In this document: in pieces, positions 1 to 18,555 of the stretch
How the letters are laid out: each line of letters begins with the position of its first letter
Position numbering within the stretch: the first letter of the stretch is position 1
The notes under the pieces: model-generated
Seen by the model: only the letters and a program-made list of their open reading frames with translations
Databases searched by the model: none
Told to the model about the DNA's origin: nothing
Position numbers and translations under genes: made by a program
IMG/VR virus record: IMGVR_UViG_3300003690_000092
Location: 1 to 41,156 of that record
Direction: 5' to 3' (one strand)
Length of the DNA: 41,156 nt
Source of the DNA: a virus

Positions 1-853
1 ACAGAATCTTAAAATTGCATTGACGACCTTGTGTGCCAAAACGCGACTTTTCAAGCCTCACCTTTACTTCTGATCCGATTCTGAATCCTTTGTCATCTAA
101 AACAAAACTTGCCTTCGCCTTTCTCCCTGTGAGCCAAATACGAAGAGAGTAAGCATAAATCATTGCTTTCCCTCCAGGGGTAACATAGGGAGTTGTCATA
201 GCCTCGGATGGCGAACGAGTAATATTCGTCTTCAACTGGTTAAGAACCAGAAAGGTAGATTGTGCATTAGCAATTGGGACAGTCAACTTTGACATTCCCT
301 TGGCAAGAATTCTCGCCTTCATTGCCATTGAGGATTGAGGGTTAAAGTCGCCTTCAATATCCGACACAGCAGGGGTTAGCGCAAGAGAGTCCCAAATGAA
401 AAGCATCCGATTATTATTATTTGCTAAAAGATCTTCGATAGTCTCCAAGACAAATTCAACAGATGCCGCTTGCACGTAAAGTAAATTATTTAAATCACAC
501 CCTGCTCTTTCAAGAAATGCTGGATCAATGGCAGATTCAGAATCAAAATAGATTACGTCAATGTCCATTTTCTGAGCATTGGCTGCAACCTGCGCCGCCA
601 TATAACTCTTTCCGGTCGATTCAAGTCCAGCAATTTCTGTAATCTTTCCAATGGGAATACCTGATCGTTTCCCTCGACATACAATAGAGTCAAGCCAGCG
701 AGAACCGGTCGGAATCCAGTCTTTAACTTGCGTTGGGTTCTCTTCTGTTAAGTTATGAGCTACATTGATGCCCGCCTTTTTGTTGATTAAAGCACGCATA
801 TCTGCTAAACTTAGTTTACCTGCTTTGGTGCTTTTAGATCTCGCCATTCTCAT
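1..853 (-). CDS. uvsX: UvsX/RecA-like recombinase (3' end outside window)
   Basis: RecA-family strand-exchange ATPase, the T4 UvsX type. It would coat ssDNA and drive homologous pairing in recombination-dependent replication. The visible 284 residues carry a Walker A motif GLESTGKS (76-83), a RecA-like segment FDSESAIDP with the likely catalytic Glu at 106, and Walker B LFIWDS (151-156). The C-terminus runs off the left edge. The start at 853 (MRMARSK) is preceded by GGAG six bases upstream; an in-frame ATG at 847 is an alternative. It lies downstream of the gp32-like gene, its usual functional partner. A hairpin in the 65-nt gap may attenuate its transcription. Identification is firm; the assignment to UvsX rather than cellular RecA rests on the phage context and divergence. 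Confidence 0.93.
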   Translation of the reverse strand, partial: MRMARSKSTKAGKLSLADMRALINKKAGINVAHNLTEENPTQVKDWIPTGSRWLDSIVCRGKRSGIPIGKITEIAGLESTGKSYMAAQVAANAQKMDIDVIYFDSESAIDPAFLERAGCDLNNLLYVQAASVEFVLETIEDLLANNNNRMLFIWDSLALTPAVSDIEGDFNPQSSMAMKARILAKGMSKLTVPIANAQSTFLVLNQLKTNITRSPSEAMTTPYVTPGGKAMIYAYSLRIWLTGRKAKASFVLDDKGFRIGSEVKVRLEKSRFGTQGRQCNFKIL

Positions 854-918: not shown

Positions 919-1677
919 TTACGCTCCCATGAGTTCGTTGAAAGCAGCATCAACAGAAGAAACTGTGTCGGTTGAAGGAGGGGTGGTTGTAGAATCAGCC
1001 TCCTCGCTGGTGCTTTCATCACCAATAAGATAGGCATCTAGGAGTGCCCCTACATCTTCTGGTGTCTTACGCTCAAAGAGCGTGTCGAAGTCGGGAATGC
1101 TTTCAAGCAATTCCGCGCAACGTTCGTCTCCACCAACTGCATCATCACATAACACAGAAGAGCGGCGACGGGGGGTAAGCTTCGTTTGAGGGAAGCTAGC
1201 CCCTTGCGGCTTACCATAATGAAGAACGAGATCTGTTCCCGTATCAGTATCGGTAATATCGCCATATTCAGGATTAAGAACAAGATTGAGCAACTGCTCA
1301 TATACCATCTTGCCATATCCCCAAATACGGACACCCTTTTCCTCTTCACCTCTTACAAGAACAGGTGAGAAGAACCGTTGACGAGCCATTAATGACTTCG
1401 CCATCTTGATGCTTTCCTCGGTGCCCTCGTTAAAAAGCTTCCGAACAAAATCATCCAACGGATCTCCTTCACCGAAGTTCTTCTTCGGGCTCAGGAAACC
1501 AGGACTGTTGCCCACATTATAGTGGAACCAGAAATCCTTGAAAGGATCTCCATCAGCAGTGGGGACAATACGAATACACTGTTCGCCGTCTTGTGGACGC
1601 CAAAACGTATCACGATTGCCTCCTCTATTATCTAATGCAGCCTTGCGCTGCTTCATTTTATCAACATTAATTGCCAT
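919..1677 (-). CDS. gp32: gp32-like single-stranded DNA-binding protein
   Basis: A 252-aa ssDNA-binding protein of the T4 gp32 type that would protect replication and recombination intermediates. The N-terminus is basic (MAINVDKMKQRK), followed by an OB-fold-like core (FWRPQDGEQCIRIVP at about 26-40). The last 50 residues are rich in Asp, Glu, Ser and Thr, the acidic tail through which such proteins bind partner proteins. The T4 gp32 zinc ligands are absent; only three scattered cysteines are present. The gene has a good ribosome binding site (AAGGAG), its own sigma70-like promoter and a structured 5' leader, and uvsX lies immediately downstream. Assignment is by overall pattern and context, as marine relatives diverge strongly from T4. 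Confidence 0.82.
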   Translation of the reverse strand: MAINVDKMKQRKAALDNRGGNRDTFWRPQDGEQCIRIVPTADGDPFKDFWFHYNVGNSPGFLSPKKNFGEGDPLDDFVRKLFNEGTEESIKMAKSLMARQRFFSPVLVRGEEEKGVRIWGYGKMVYEQLLNLVLNPEYGDITDTDTGTDLVLHYGKPQGASFPQTKLTPRRRSSVLCDDAVGGDERCAELLESIPDFDTLFERKTPEDVGALLDAYLIGDESTSEEADSTTTPPSTDTVSSVDAAFNELMGA

Positions 1678-1790: not shown

Positions 1791-2054
1791 TTAATTAAAA
1801 AAACTGTGATCGACCGGAATAGTAAGAATAAATCCGCCTGCTTGTTCGCACTGGCACGTACCCTCATATTCAAATCCCGAGAAGTCCGCACCCAAGACGG
1901 AGCATGCGACTTCACAGTGACCGACTATTCTTCCAAATTCAAAACCTTCCTTATATGTAGCGACAGCTAGCAAGCTTCCACCGGCTGTGAGGATAAGCAT
2001 GACGAGTACCCTTTTCCAATATTTTTGTATCAGATTTCGTAGCTTACTCAACAT
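1791..2054 (-). CDS. Small cysteine-containing membrane protein, unknown
   Basis: An 87-aa protein with a basic N-terminus (MLSKLRNLIQKYWKR), one hydrophobic segment (about 16-33) and a polar C-terminal part with four cysteines (CEVAC and CQC). The pattern suggests a type II or signal-anchored membrane protein whose cysteine-bearing domain faces the periplasm and could form disulphides. It follows the FtsZ/tubulin-like gene by 22 nt and ends just upstream of the gp32-like promoter. I do not recognise a family. Proteins of this build in phages include superinfection-exclusion and envelope-modifying proteins, but nothing here specifies that. Confidence 0.6.
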   Translation of the reverse strand: MLSKLRNLIQKYWKRVLVMLILTAGGSLLAVATYKEGFEFGRIVGHCEVACSVLGADFSGFEYEGTCQCEQAGGFILTIPVDHSFFN

Positions 2055-2076: not shown

Positions 2077-2910
2077 TTAATTGCTTGTGTGCGAAGTGTT
2101 TGCCACAACATATCCATAGTTCTTTTCGTAAGAAGTGGAATAAATTTGAAAACTTGTTTTAATATCTTTTTGATTTTGTTGAATATTATCAGTTAAACGT
2201 CGAAAGAGTGCTCCATCTTGTTCCAACTCTTTCTCGTTAATAGCATAATAATAACTCTTTTCAGATACATTGTCAAGAGAAAAAAACAATTTTTCTTCAC
2301 CGTTCTGGGGATCTGTTAATCCAAAAGTGCTTATGCGCCGACCTACCTTACTCTCAAAAGGAGTTTTGTATATAGGCTTATTGTGTTTATAGATATTAAC
2401 CATATGGACAGTAGATACGAGTAGGTCATTGATGTGATCAAAAAATGTCATAATTGGAACATCGCCTAAAATCTTTTCTATCTCTGTGTTATCAACAATG
2501 TAAAGCCGCTTAAAAAGACCAGATCTGGTATATTCCTGTAAGACGTGTCTAACTAATTGTTCTTGTAATAAGTTAGTTTCTGCCAAAAATTGTAATTCTG
2601 GCTTTATGTATAAAATATTAATATTTTTTGAAGACAAGTGTTTAAGTATCTGTAGTGCTGCGCCTGAAACGAATCCCGCGCCACAAACAATAAAAAGAAT
2701 ATCGTTAGTGGTATTGTTAAAAAATGCTTTAAGAGGAGGGGCATGTTTCTCGTATTCTTCGGGGTGATTATATCGTTTTAATAGATAACTGCCTTCGTCT
2801 TTGTGATCAATATCTTCGCTATCAATCTTAAAGATTTTGTACTGGGGATGCTGGGCGAATTTGTCTGCTATTGCACAACCTGCCCTTCCAAGACCGATTA
2901 TTGTATCCAT
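2077..2910 (-). CDS. Divergent FtsZ/tubulin-superfamily protein (candidate)
   Basis: A 277-aa protein whose layout follows the FtsZ GTPase domain. The N-terminal strand and loop IIGLGRAGC (4-12) resembles the FtsZ VIGVGGAGCNA loop. A strand plus glycine loop FIVCGAGFVSGAA (73-85) sits where the tubulin signature GGGTGTGAA lies. It is followed by a strand ILYIKPE like the FtsZ VVTKP segment, then RLYIVDNTEIEKIL (135-148) like LIVIPNDKLL, and a helix FFDHINDLLVSTVHMV resembling the FtsZ helix after that element. The signature loop is degenerate, so GTP binding is uncertain. The start has a strong AGGAGG inside the 3' end of the polymerase gene, overlapping it by 13 nt, so the two are translationally coupled. 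A Rossmann NAD-binding protein is the main alternative. Confidence 0.6.
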   Translation of the reverse strand: MDTIIGLGRAGCAIADKFAQHPQYKIFKIDSEDIDHKDEGSYLLKRYNHPEEYEKHAPPLKAFFNNTTNDILFIVCGAGFVSGAALQILKHLSSKNINILYIKPELQFLAETNLLQEQLVRHVLQEYTRSGLFKRLYIVDNTEIEKILGDVPIMTFFDHINDLLVSTVHMVNIYKHNKPIYKTPFESKVGRRISTFGLTDPQNGEEKLFFSLDNVSEKSYYYAINEKELEQDGALFRRLTDNIQQNQKDIKTSFQIYSTSYEKNYGYVVANTSHTSN

Positions 2911-4100
2911 CCTAGCCTCCTCATTGTGCCATACGATTTTCCAGCACTTACATTAACCTTAAAAACGCCAAAAGGAGTTTCAGAGAAAATATCGATCAAC
3001 TCTCCAATAATTGCACGCTCGCTATCGTCACAATCTATAACAATACTATCATGAAGCGTGAAGGAAATAAAGGACTTTTTCTCCTTTAGTTTGTCTGCAA
3101 TCTTAAACGCCCTGGACAGTACCAAGTCGCTTGTGGTGCTCTGTATTAAATAGTTTAATGCATGGTGTTTGTCCGCTTCAATTTTTCTATTATAAGGTGT
3201 CGTTACTTGTTGTCCGTTAAAATATTTTTGCAATATACCATCTCGATCATAATGCCGATTTGATAAATAATCTTTAGCCTTTGGGTTATATAACCAAGCA
3301 AAAATTCGTTTTTTTGCCTCTTCGCGTGTTCCCATGCCGCGATAGATATTATCAATATTCCACTGATGGATGTCGTCTTGTGGTTGTTCTTTCCCGCTTA
3401 GTCCGAGAAGAACACGAAGTTCTGCTGCATTGTAGTCTAATTCAACAAAATAATCATTCACGGGTTTTAATATATTTCTATAATCGGCATTTAAAGTTAA
3501 TATTGGAAAGCTTCGTTTACATGTTGTCATCCTTCCAGTCTTCGTGCCATAAATATTATATGAAATATATGGTTTGATATGCTTACTCTTCTTTAGAAAG
3601 TTTCGGGTCTTCAGTTGATGACTCTCTCTGGCAATTTCTGCATAGTTAATATTTAGCTTTTGCTGCCGAATGTTATATGTAAGTTCTGATAGGTTTCTCA
3701 TGAAAGCATAGTTCTCTGGCATGTCGTATTTTTTGATAACATGCTCAGTGATTTTGTTCTTAACCTCACAATATTCAAGCAGAAATCGTTGGGGGACGAT
3801 ATCGTAAAAGCAGTGCCTATCGAGAGAGATTTTTGCCGTTGAAAATGACTTGTAAAACGCTCTTAGGCGGGCGTTGATAGCCTCCCAACGGTGTCTTAGA
3901 AAATCAGGGCAGACCTCATTCAATGATTTGCCTCCAACGAATAGAGAGGCAATGAGGGCATTATTGTGGACTAAAATAGGGCTATAATTCCAAGTTGCAC
4001 TTACAGCATTGAAGTTAAATTCATCACAATCGTAAATAAGTTTGCCGTCGTGATATATTCCAATACAATGTTTTTTATCGTCTAGTGTTTGAATAAACAA
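2898..4100 (-). CDS. polA: Short family A DNA polymerase lacking exonuclease domain
   Basis: A 400-aa polymerase of the Pol I family. Motif A is LDYNAAELR (221-229, catalytic D222). The O-helix fits the R-xxx-K-xxx-F-xxx-Y spacing exactly (R259, K263, F267, Y271, in TREEAKKRIFAWLY). Motif C is LHDSIVI (catalytic D351), with Ser where Pol I has Glu. A thumb-like region precedes motif A, including SYNIYGTKTGRMT (180-192). The first 150 residues show no 3'-5' exonuclease DxE motif, and the protein is much shorter than E. coli Pol I (928 aa) or T7 polymerase (704 aa). The start is TTG at 4100 with AGGTGA just upstream; no nearby ATG fits. Phe at the O-helix position predicts discrimination against dideoxynucleotides. 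The proofreading function may be supplied elsewhere. Confidence 0.88.
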   Translation of the reverse strand: MFIQTLDDKKHCIGIYHDGKLIYDCDEFNFNAVSATWNYSPILVHNNALIASLFVGGKSLNEVCPDFLRHRWEAINARLRAFYKSFSTAKISLDRHCFYDIVPQRFLLEYCEVKNKITEHVIKKYDMPENYAFMRNLSELTYNIRQQKLNINYAEIARESHQLKTRNFLKKSKHIKPYISYNIYGTKTGRMTTCKRSFPILTLNADYRNILKPVNDYFVELDYNAAELRVLLGLSGKEQPQDDIHQWNIDNIYRGMGTREEAKKRIFAWLYNPKAKDYLSNRHYDRDGILQKYFNGQQVTTPYNRKIEADKHHALNYLIQSTTSDLVLSRAFKIADKLKEKKSFISFTLHDSIVIDCDDSERAIIGELIDIFSETPFGVFKVNVSAGKSYGTMRRLGWIQ

Positions 4101-15498: not shown

Positions 15499-18400
15499 TT
15501 AATCATCGAAAGAAGCTCCTGTATTTGTTATAACAAAGTCAAGTGCAATAAATTCAATTGCGCGAGCGGGCTTTAAGAAGATCTTGGCATACAAAACGTT
15601 TCTATCAATTAGTTCAGGAGTTGTTGTGCTGCTATCAAGGACAACCTTGAAATCTGTTAGTCCCAATCTTGACTGGACGCTTCGCAGGAAAGGATTGGCT
15701 TTGTTTAGGAATCTATCCCAAGTTGCTTGCACATTTTGGTCAAACAAAATCGTAGCTGCCATTCTTGAAATTTCTTTCTTAACATAAATCATTAAGCGGC
15801 GTACATTGACTCTATCAAGTGCCGAAGGGGTTACCTGCAATGTCTTTTGACCAAAGATTACAATACCCTCTGCCGGGAATGTGGCAATTGGATTAATATT
15901 CGCCTCGTAAAGATCGTCACGATCCTTAGAAGTTAATCTTTGTCGAGTTTGAAGTACTGGCAGTCCTGCGGATCCTTCGGTTAAGCCACCGCGAGTAAAG
16001 CCTGCGGGTGCAAACCAAAGTTCGCTGTTCCTTTGTGCGCTTGAGAAGGTTCCCAAGGCAACAATAGAGGGGGGAGCCCAAAGAAGACTGTTGCTATAGT
16101 TATCAAGAATCTGAACCCATGGATAATATACACATCCATAACTTGAATTAATTTTTCTATTCTTTAGATTCGTGACCGCAGTTGAGACGCTTCCGATTCG
16201 GTCGGCAATAGATTGTGTATTTTCTGTGTCTGCCTTATATCCTGAATCAATATCGACAACAGCAAGTGCGTCTCCGCGATTTTCACAGACCTTAATTGCG
16301 TGTGCGGTTAGAGGTTCATACCAAATACCAGGAAGTGACATTAAGTTATATTCTGCAACTTCTGGATCTGCAACCGTATCTACTGCTCTTCTAATTGAGT
16401 AATAGGCATAATTGCTGGTATCTGTGGCATCCGTCATTCCAGAGTTTCTGAATGGCTCTTTTTCTGAGATATCGAGCCCGTCGTATCCTCCGACAACCGG
16501 CACCGTAAAACGGTTATAACCATCATCAAGAATCTGCTGATATGTTCCGCTCACTGCTGTGATGGAGTGGCCACTTATCCGGGAGCCGGAAGCCCAAACA
16601 GCCACGCCTCCATCTTGACCTGGACCCACTGAAGAGCTTAGATCATCGAGGCTAAAGAGATAGGAGTATTCATTGCCGTCCGCCTTGGTAAACGTAGATA
16701 CCGAATAAGGTAGCGGTCTTACTATATCCATGTAGCTTTGCTCGAATTCATTATTAGATGCCTGTGTGGTATCAATGCCGAAATATGCGTCCTTTGGACT
16801 AGAAATGCCGCCATCAGATGCGCTCGCCCTCAGAGGAATTGTTGGGTATTTGGCCAAGCAACTGAATGGGTTCGTGATACCTACAGATAAGAAGTTTGAA
16901 CCAGAATGTGGGTTGGTGATATTGCTGCCACCTCTGACCCAAGTATTACCAGAACCTGTCACAAAGTCCGTGCTGGTGGAATCGGGACCGAAGTTTGTGA
17001 GTAGCTTCCGTGAGGCACTAACAAAAACCCAGTCTGAAAACTTAAGAGGACCATACGAACCAAACGGCAAGGATGCGGCATCGGTAACAGCGGTTTCAAC
17101 ATCTTCATTCATTTCCACACGAACATATATTGATGCATTGGGATAGTCGCCAAAAGTGCGATGTCTTCTTTCAACATCGTCCCATGTAATATATTGATTG
17201 CCAACAACTCTAGAAATATATTTAGAAGAGTTTGGATTCAAATTAACAGAACTAAATCTTTCGAGAACAACAGGGGCATTATCGCTATCTGTTGCGTCTC
17301 TAATTTCTACACTAAAGGAGCCGTAAGGATCGTAATCATTAGAAGTAGACTTAATATCTACAATAGAAACTTTGAGGAGCTTACTTTCGCGCTCTCCGGT
17401 ATCTAATGTATGGAACTTAAATAGAGCCTTTATACGATTTGTATCTGTTATATCGAAGCTTGTGTAGCTTGACTGAAGATCCTGTGAAATAATCCAAGGG
17501 GTCTGTCCCGCCTGGAATCCGTATTTAAAGTTAGATGAGCCAAGAGTACCACTATCGAGCCCCAGGACCGCCGCAAAAGCGTTCCCTGTGGAGGTGCTAG
17601 TAACATACGTGGTGAGATGTCGTTCATATGTTTGTCCAAGCCAATAGGTTTTTTGTTGATCCGATCTTGTAATTGCTGTATTGGTTAAAGTCGGATTCGT
17701 GTTGAAAACCTTTCGAATATACTTTGCAGAGGAGGGGCTAAAATTAAAATTAGTTTCATGTACAACAGTACCACCGGAATTTCTAATAACCGCTCTCCAC
17801 TCATTTGCAGTGGCACCAGCCGAGTTGGGCTCAATAGACAAACCATTGACACCACCACCCGAATCAAGAGATCTGATCAAAACCGCACTGCCTGTTCCTT
17901 GTTTGGGATCACTGGCCATACCGGCTTCGCCGCTTCCCCTGGCGGATCCTGATTGGGTGTGCCCGCTTGACGAAGCGAAGGTGCGAAATGTACCAGAAAG
18001 TTCGATACAGCCTTCGTTTAGATACCAGACTGCTGCTAGAGCGCCTGTAACGCCTGCCGAGGAGTATTGAGTAGTGTTAGGAGCAGCCGCGCCCGATGTT
18101 GGCGCAGAAGCGGAAGGAAAAACAAACAGTCCATATGCACCACCATTGGCGGCAATTCCTTTGGTGTTTAGAGTGGCATCAGTTTCCCAGCCAGCGCGAC
18201 CAGCGCCACCGCCTTGTCCTGCGGATACTCTTGAATCTTGTGCCCCCAAGAGGCGCACCATTGTTAGAGCATTGCTGTTTCTCAAATAAGCTTGTGCTGC
18301 AAACCCAGCGTAAGTGGGAGCGGTATAGTTGCCATCTCGCCAAATATCGCCGCCCTCGCCACCGGCTAAGGGGTTTCCAAAAATCTCAACATATTCAGAA

Positions 18401-18555
18401 AATGACCCAACTTTGACGGGGCGCATTGCTGGACCTTTTTCTGTTCGTCCGATGAGGACTGGCCCCATGTCCGCAGCAACCCGAGGTAATTGAGAATTGT
18501 CGATCTCATTTATAAAAATACCGGGTGAAATAAATTTGAAAGATTTAACTGGCAT
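15499..18555 (-). CDS. gp18: Tail sheath protein (gp18-like)
   Basis: A 1018-aa contractile sheath subunit. The N-terminus shows the usual SPGIFINEID start and a MGPVLIGRTEKGPA segment. The C-terminal 250 residues carry the conserved core, including GIVIFGQKTLQ, a VRRLMIYVKKEISR helix, TWDRFLNKANPFLRSVQ and the final strand EFIALDFVITNTGA that inserts into neighbouring subunits. It is much longer than T4 gp18 (659 aa). The excess is in Ser/Gly/Thr-rich middle domains (about 120-600), probably exposed on the tail surface. Strong ribosome binding site AAGGAGAC. It lies between the gp15-like and tube genes as expected. Confidence 0.93.
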   Translation of the reverse strand: MPVKSFKFISPGIFINEIDNSQLPRVAADMGPVLIGRTEKGPAMRPVKVGSFSEYVEIFGNPLAGGEGGDIWRDGNYTAPTYAGFAAQAYLRNSNALTMVRLLGAQDSRVSAGQGGGAGRAGWETDATLNTKGIAANGGAYGLFVFPSASAPTSGAAAPNTTQYSSAGVTGALAAVWYLNEGCIELSGTFRTFASSSGHTQSGSARGSGEAGMASDPKQGTGSAVLIRSLDSGGGVNGLSIEPNSAGATANEWRAVIRNSGGTVVHETNFNFSPSSAKYIRKVFNTNPTLTNTAITRSDQQKTYWLGQTYERHLTTYVTSTSTGNAFAAVLGLDSGTLGSSNFKYGFQAGQTPWIISQDLQSSYTSFDITDTNRIKALFKFHTLDTGERESKLLKVSIVDIKSTSNDYDPYGSFSVEIRDATDSDNAPVVLERFSSVNLNPNSSKYISRVVGNQYITWDDVERRHRTFGDYPNASIYVRVEMNEDVETAVTDAASLPFGSYGPLKFSDWVFVSASRKLLTNFGPDSTSTDFVTGSGNTWVRGGSNITNPHSGSNFLSVGITNPFSCLAKYPTIPLRASASDGGISSPKDAYFGIDTTQASNNEFEQSYMDIVRPLPYSVSTFTKADGNEYSYLFSLDDLSSSVGPGQDGGVAVWASGSRISGHSITAVSGTYQQILDDGYNRFTVPVVGGYDGLDISEKEPFRNSGMTDATDTSNYAYYSIRRAVDTVADPEVAEYNLMSLPGIWYEPLTAHAIKVCENRGDALAVVDIDSGYKADTENTQSIADRIGSVSTAVTNLKNRKINSSYGCVYYPWVQILDNYSNSLLWAPPSIVALGTFSSAQRNSELWFAPAGFTRGGLTEGSAGLPVLQTRQRLTSKDRDDLYEANINPIATFPAEGIVIFGQKTLQVTPSALDRVNVRRLMIYVKKEISRMAATILFDQNVQATWDRFLNKANPFLRSVQSRLGLTDFKVVLDSSTTTPELIDRNVLYAKIFLKPARAIEFIALDFVITNTGASFDD

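Follow-up and report, generated by a model that had tools for sequence, protein, structure and literature searches.

Organization of the Locus

The window analyzed here is an entire virus record of 41,156 bp, and the gene under study is an ATG-initiated ORF encoding a 277-aa protein, with a Shine-Dalgarno sequence (GAGGAGG) located 5 nt 5′ of the start codon (Table 1). A preliminary description of this DNA had placed the gene in a T4-like phage, overlapping a DNA polymerase gene and close to gp32 and uvsX. The ORF indeed overlaps by 13 nt with the stop of a family-A DNA polymerase ORF, the gp32-like and uvsX-like genes both lie downstream, and the remaining window is made up of T4-type structural genes for head and tail (portal, protease, major head, sheath, tube and terminase). 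The motifs quoted for the 277-aa product were all verified in the protein, namely IIGLGRAGC, CGAGFVSGAA, LYIKPE, LYIVDNTEIEKIL and FDHINDLLVSTV. The reading frame is kept across hundreds of relatives, and comparison of the window gene with a 94% relative (L001) gave a dN/dS of 0.15, which indicates purifying selection.

The family-A polymerase, in the window and in relatives, is only ~400 aa long and has no recognized exonuclease domain; in relatives, a 5′-3′ exonuclease is encoded by a gene of its own that lies some kb further downstream (L064:10277-11299). In the window's subclade the tubulin-like gene is immediately followed by one for an 87-aa protein with one predicted transmembrane helix and Cys in its tail, a possible candidate for a membrane anchor or partner of the tubulin-like protein. 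Elsewhere in the window, the tail sheath homolog (15499-18555, minus strand) is 1018 aa long, and its PHROG sheath matches fall mainly past residue 458.

Table 1. Features of the locus, with positions in the window unless a relative's contig is named.
Feature	Position	Strand	Basis
Predicted tubulin/FtsZ-superfamily protein, 277 aa	2077..2910	-	ORF, relatives, AlphaFold2, Foldseek
T1 loop GLGRAGC codons (residues 6-12; G6, G8, G11 invariant, C12 96%)	2875..2895	-	Conservation
D30 codon (T2 loop; SaFtsZ D46 position), 95% conserved	2821..2823	-	Conservation, alignment
Degenerate T4 signature loop GAGFVSG codons (residues 77-83; family GxGx[IV]SG)	2662..2682	-	Conservation
N141 codon (T6 loop, guanine contact position), 96% conserved	2488..2490	-	hhalign, conservation
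N161 codon (N-terminal part of helix H7, guanine contact position), 96%	2428..2430	-	hhalign, conservation
Codons of residues 176-192, standing in for T7 loop and H8, no NxDxxD	2335..2385	-	AlphaFold2, conservation
Family-A DNA polymerase, 400 aa, 13-nt overlap with tubulin-like gene	2898..4100	-	PF00476 E 1e-11; adjacency
gp32-like single-strand DNA-binding protein, next conserved gene downstream	919..1677	-	Library matches; adjacency
UvsX/RecA-like recombinase, cut by window end	2..853	-	Library matches
Small membrane-anchored Cys-containing protein, 87 aa, one TM helix, window's own subclade only	1791..2054	-	Prediction
MazG/PRA-PH-like ORF, examples	L064:5688-5999, L109:5661-5999, L086:5699-6001		Subthreshold match

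Distribution of the Family and Its Place in the Replication Module

A first scan of IMG/VR returned 14 relatives, and alignment-based scans of the same collection raised this number to 346 and then to at least 584 confirmed stretches, on contigs of up to 190 kb. A tblastn search of 50,697 phage records with E-values up to 1 gave no match to the protein, and no INPHARED phage with the gene was found. Phage records reached through polA, uvsX and terminase yielded no further carrier; the nearest cultured relatives by terminase are Microcystis phage Mel-JY01 and Flavobacterium phage immuto, at 41-43%. Five terminase relatives and phiKZ, scanned with the family profile and PF00091, likewise included no carrier, a result that is weak evidence of absence given that the scan had no positive control. 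The single match among 84,980 prokaryote genomes, in a WOR-3 MAG (L154, CP070664.1), was rejected as a host gene: the phage fragment (5.5-10.8 kb, carrying phage replication genes) sits between runs of N in a MAG labeled as a chromosome, which is probably a chimeric scaffold. No second full-length tubulin/FtsZ was detected in eight larger relative contigs. In one contig (L014, 957-1789) a frameshift splits the gene.

The gene neighborhood was surveyed for 181 non-identical genes (182 were counted, one of them, L015, being a duplicate of the window), and the order was polA-(MazG-like)-tub-ssb-uvsX. In every locus with enough sequence, ssb lies downstream on the same strand within ~1 kb, and polA is at most 700 nt upstream in 151 of the 163 loci with room for it; in most of the others it lies at a distance of up to ~3 kb or falls outside the contig. 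When loci were collected by a polymerase query alone, 79 of 80 carried the tubulin-like gene, and the contig of the one exception ends ~470 nt past the polymerase. Of the 151 loci with polA that close, 36 have an ORF of ~103 aa inserted after polA and ahead of the tubulin-like gene, with a subthreshold resemblance to MazG/PRA-PH. Given this strict linkage to polA and ssb, the gene is a core member of the replication module and not cargo; as to function, the neighborhood could stem from expression timing instead of physical interaction. In L056 (1466-3391; also in L098, and partially in L046 and L073), a 641-aa protein that looks secreted, and that has DNDCDG repeats and a stretch resembling VWA, is encoded directly upstream of the tubulin-like gene, within the replication module.

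Sequence and Fold Evidence for Tubulin/FtsZ Kinship

Searches with the single protein against Pfam, PHROGs, NCBIfam and PDB sequences gave nothing significant, and for the window protein the curated libraries returned only subthreshold Rossmann families (TrkA_N, E 0.017, residues 4-36; Sacchrp_dh_NADP, E 0.15). Among 61 members scanned singly, which as relatives are not independent and among which the window protein itself falls below every cut-off, 13 gave a subthreshold match to Pfam Tubulin (PF00091), with a best E of 0.0055, and 15 matched TrkA_N, with a best E of 0.001. Alignment of the family profile to 18 FtsZ proteins by hhalign gave an E-value of 0.0026 over 157 columns at a probability of only 11%, pairing the T6 Asn and H7 regions, and the NCBIfam FtsZ model matched member L035 over the same T6/H7 stretch (E 0.29). 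The only hit of the family profile among PDB sequences, to an alcohol-oxidase N-terminus, was dismissed as chance. At the sequence level the support for kinship with tubulin/FtsZ is thus weak but consistent, and below curated cut-offs.

An AlphaFold2 model of the window protein was obtained from a 61-sequence alignment with the window protein placed first (pLDDT 92.9, pTM 0.91). Foldseek searches of the PDB with this model showed that the 50 best matches were without exception FtsZ, TubZ or tubulin (best E 5.6e-13, probability 1.00, TM normalized to the query up to 0.74, 10-14% identity). In the viral library BFVD, the top match was an "FtsZ" of an uncultured Caudovirales phage (E 2.1e-13, query TM 0.81, 17% identity), followed by phage tubulins and PhuZ, and the first dehydrogenase came ninth (E 8e-4, query TM 0.41), nine orders of magnitude in E-value behind the phage FtsZ. 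As a replicate, a distant member (L013, 37% identical) was modeled from an alignment that left out the window protein, with a pLDDT of 95.0, and its best PDB matches were TubZ (E 2.0e-13) and FtsZ (E 2.2e-13); this replicate is not fully independent, since the two alignments have many relatives in common. The models contain the two-domain fold, i.e., an N-terminal nucleotide domain, the core helix H7 and a C-terminal domain. The FtsZ/tubulin-like character claimed in the preliminary description was thereby borne out, and a Rossmann dehydrogenase as best structural match, the outcome that it had named as speaking against the claim, did not occur. Together, these predicted structures leave little doubt that the protein has a tubulin/FtsZ fold and belongs to the superfamily.

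Retention of a Predicted Nucleotide Pocket and Loss of Catalytic Parts

Equivalence of residues to FtsZ was deduced from sequence and profile alignment together with secondary structure, and conservation was calculated from 88 non-redundant members. The predicted elements of the N-terminal part are S1 (3-7), T1, H1 (8-18), S2 (25-30), S3 (41-43), S4 (70-75), T4 and H4 (80-90); the middle part comprises S5 (96-103), H5 (111-129), S6 (135-140), T6, H6 (141-148) and H7 (153-175); and after H7 there are strands at 193-199 and 217-225, helices at 226-231 and 235-246, and strands at 251-259 and 265-272. Judging from the order of elements in the model, the FtsZ helices H2, H8 and H9 appear to have no counterpart, and the C-terminal domain would be a trimmed one. 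At the C-terminus (residue 276), an SSx[IV]Q tail is conserved in most members, its Q at 84%, and the window's subclade has T..TNN or similar.

In SaFtsZ, loops T1-T4 touch the phosphates, T5 the ribose and T6 the guanine; the Mg waters are kept in order by D46 of T2, the T7 residues D210 and D213 position the water that attacks, and each of D46A, R143Q, N208L, D210N and D213N alone abolishes assembly (PMC8936486). In the tubulin-like family, G6, G8 and G11 are conserved at 100%, C12 at 96%, D30 at 95%, and N141 and N161 at 96% each, so that the guanine-contact Asn residues of T6 and H7 are present. The preliminary description had noted that the GGGTGTG signature is lost; across the 88 members neither this signature nor [SAG]GGTG[SAT]G is matched, and the T4 loop is degenerate yet patterned, reading G-x-G-x-[IV]-S-G with a position and H4 start that match the T4 signature. 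The same members have no conserved Asn or Asp between H7 and S7, and hence the NxDxxD (T7) loop is gone. Nor is any Arg conserved in the early part of H5 (residues 110-117), where a counterpart of SaFtsZ R143 would be sought (R118 is conserved at only 56%), and the T3 glycines are missing. Four of the five SaFtsZ positions listed above are therefore without a counterpart, D46 alone having one.

The earlier suggestion that the protein may not hydrolyze GTP is strengthened by these results, in that the losses go beyond the T4 signature and take in the T3 glycines, the Arg of H5 and the catalytic loop T7. With the pocket retained and the catalytic parts lost, canonical GTPase activity is likely absent, a canonical filament is unlikely, and the protein probably does bind a guanine nucleotide, a reading of the aligned residues that should extend to the window protein because its guanine-site residues are kept. 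Of the alternatives "cytoskeletal or pseudo-GTPase" offered previously, the pseudo-GTPase part is strengthened by the loss of catalytic parts; the cytoskeletal part is conjectural, as the canonical filament interface is largely missing, and filaments of a non-canonical kind are conceivable.

A Pocket-Less Clade and a Second Conserved Surface

One clade (L011, L012/L090, L061, L013, L087, L088 and L089) has lost D30, N141 and N161 together and has an altered T4, and all other members examined kept both Asn residues. In the phylogenetic tree the six non-redundant members of this clade form one group with support of 100/99, so that a single co-loss event is likely and the clade amounts to one natural experiment. 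Since these residues are distant in sequence, were lost jointly and are predicted to lie in one pocket, their loss supports the assignment of D30, N141 and N161 to a nucleotide site. The gene itself was retained in the clade despite the lost pocket, as were the T1 glycines and Q125, R129, H169, R192 and Y220.

Outside the pocket, the most invariant residues of the family are Q125, Y127, R129 and S130 at the end of H5, H169, M170 and N172 at the end of H7, and R192, Y220 and Y222. In the tubulin fold the helices run from the nucleotide side toward the opposite side, and we accordingly take the ends of H5 and H7 to be placed at the face where FtsZ has T7. This patch is mostly kept in the pocket-less clade (N172 excepted, in some members), which argues for a structural or partner-binding role and not for catalysis in trans. 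The idea that trans-acting basic residues replace T7 was set aside on the same grounds, as Q125, R129, H169 and R192 persist where the nucleotide pocket does not.

Proposed Function and Alternatives

We propose that the protein is a guanine-nucleotide-binding, non-canonical tubulin-superfamily accessory of the replisome, a statement to which, taken whole and with its function drawn from linkage, we assign a probability of roughly 55%. According to this proposal, a reduced tubulin/FtsZ-superfamily protein would be a fixed component of the replication module in a large T4-like phage lineage. It would bind GTP, GDP or another guanine nucleotide, and would neither hydrolyze it by the mechanism in which T7 acts in trans nor form FtsZ-type protofilaments. 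Occupancy of the site may tune a binding surface opposite the nucleotide, made up of Q125/Y127/R129/S130, H169/M170/N172 and R192, and the tuned patch may dock a replication partner (the polymerase or the SSB), helping to load or organize the phage replisome. Because one subclade lost the pocket and kept the patch, contact with the partner, and not nucleotide turnover, would be the core function. The fuller proposition, that the tubulin fold was recruited as a non-filamentous, nucleotide-gated replisome subunit fixed across a large uncultivated T4-like lineage, is put forward tentatively, as possible more than probable.

The main rival is a phage cytoskeletal filament of the PhuZ/TubZ type that polymerizes through a rebuilt bottom interface and positions or segregates replicating DNA or capsids. 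Membership of the same superfamily, the presence of PhuZ and related phage tubulins among the best BFVD matches, the high conservation of the patch predicted for the bottom face and the conserved SSxIQ tail of most members (such tails matter for FtsZ and TubZ filaments) all speak for it; we nevertheless consider it unlikely, as T7 NxDxxD, H8, the T3 glycines and the H5 Arg are absent, including positions essential for SaFtsZ assembly, and an entire subclade kept the gene after losing the nucleotide pocket. Inhibition of host division and nucleotide sensing are weaker rivals than such a filament. Phages are known to encode division inhibitors that act on FtsZ, such as lambda Kil and T7 gp0.4, and an FtsZ fold that retains part of the loops on its nucleotide side and has lost the catalytic loop on the other is what would be expected of a one-sided mimic, one that attaches to the FtsZ of the infected host and caps the filaments. 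The strict placement between polA and ssb, and not among host-takeover genes, makes this reading improbable, as do the deep divergence (~13% identity) and the lack of conservation with FtsZ in the top-face T3 and T5, where FtsZ makes longitudinal contacts.

A kept pocket with lost catalysis would also suit a guanine-nucleotide sensor, a soluble, non-polymerizing tubulin fold responding to (d)GTP/GDP or an alarmone and regulating either the polymerase next to it or the nucleotide pool, and the MazG/PRA-PH-like ORF found in part of the loci resembles a family of nucleotide-pool enzymes; however, the assignment of that ORF is subthreshold and the pocket-less clade kept the gene, and we regard a sensor as more improbable still. 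Least credible of all is a Rossmann-type NAD(P) or other nucleotide-binding enzyme whose tubulin likeness would be a fold-level analogy only. TrkA_N is the best curated match of the window protein and recurs among members, but it spans only the T1 loop, whereas Foldseek ranks FtsZ, TubZ and tubulin along the whole chain including the C-terminal domain and places the first viral dehydrogenase far behind the phage FtsZ; the H7 core helix and the T6/H7 Asn pair are moreover tubulin features. A Rossmann dehydrogenase was therefore rejected on fold evidence.

Comparison With Known Tubulin-Superfamily Systems

The protein shares with bacterial FtsZ (PF00091; S. aureus structures 5MN5 and 4DXD) the whole-chain fold, the order of elements, the T1 glycines, the T2 Asp, the T6 Asn and the Asn at the start of H7. 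It differs from FtsZ in sequence (~13% identity, with GxGx[IV]SG in T4 in place of GGGTGTG), in the absence of T7 NxDxxD, the H5 catalytic Arg, the T3 glycines, H2, H8 and H9, and in genomic context. TubZ of plasmid and phage partition systems (4EI7, 2XKA) has the same fold and is the best match for L013, but the tubulin-like protein is ~100 residues shorter and without the catalytic loop, and no TubR/TubY-type partner was seen among its neighbors (polA, MazG-like, ssb, uvsX). PhuZ of phiKZ-type jumbo phages is likewise a phage-encoded superfamily member, and Noxifer PhuZ is among the BFVD matches (E 1.3e-6); by sequence, however, hhalign against phiKZ gp39 was insignificant (E 0.062, 79 columns), and the family profile found nothing in phiKZ. 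Compared with PhuZ phages, the carriers here are smaller and have T4-like head and tail genes, and the gene is linked to polA and ssb. The closest single fold match, the BFVD entry A0A6J5RW92 ("FtsZ Cell division GTPase," 452 aa) introduced above as the top viral hit, is 175 residues longer and is likened by fold.

Papers on phage tubulins deal with jumbo phages and with partition systems (PMC7824862, PMC3678025, PMC8314001, PMC7162821); the open-access literature yielded no account of T4-like phages with a protein of this kind, and no model in Pfam, PHROGs or NCBIfam names the family. Sequence sets the protein apart from PhuZ, and its neighbors, as far as they go, give no sign of TubZ. It is a superfamily member by predicted fold that lacks the T4 signature, T7 and the H5 Arg, the features by which active FtsZ-type GTPases are defined, and is best described as a new, reduced variant within the known tubulin/FtsZ superfamily. 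The family provides a natural series running from an intact to a lost pocket, with the catalytic loop nowhere present, in which to ask what the tubulin fold does without GTP hydrolysis, and because the slot next to the polymerase and SSB genes is fixed, a role in replication can be put directly to the test. If such a role holds true, this would be the first tubulin fold working in DNA replication itself and not in filaments. Most known phage tubulins belong to jumbo phages of the phiKZ type or to TubZ partition elements. The family described here adds a distinct, trimmed form of the fold, encoded by a core gene of T4-like phages on hundreds of metagenomic contigs, and it seems that a phage replication module has taken up a cytoskeleton fold as a constant component.
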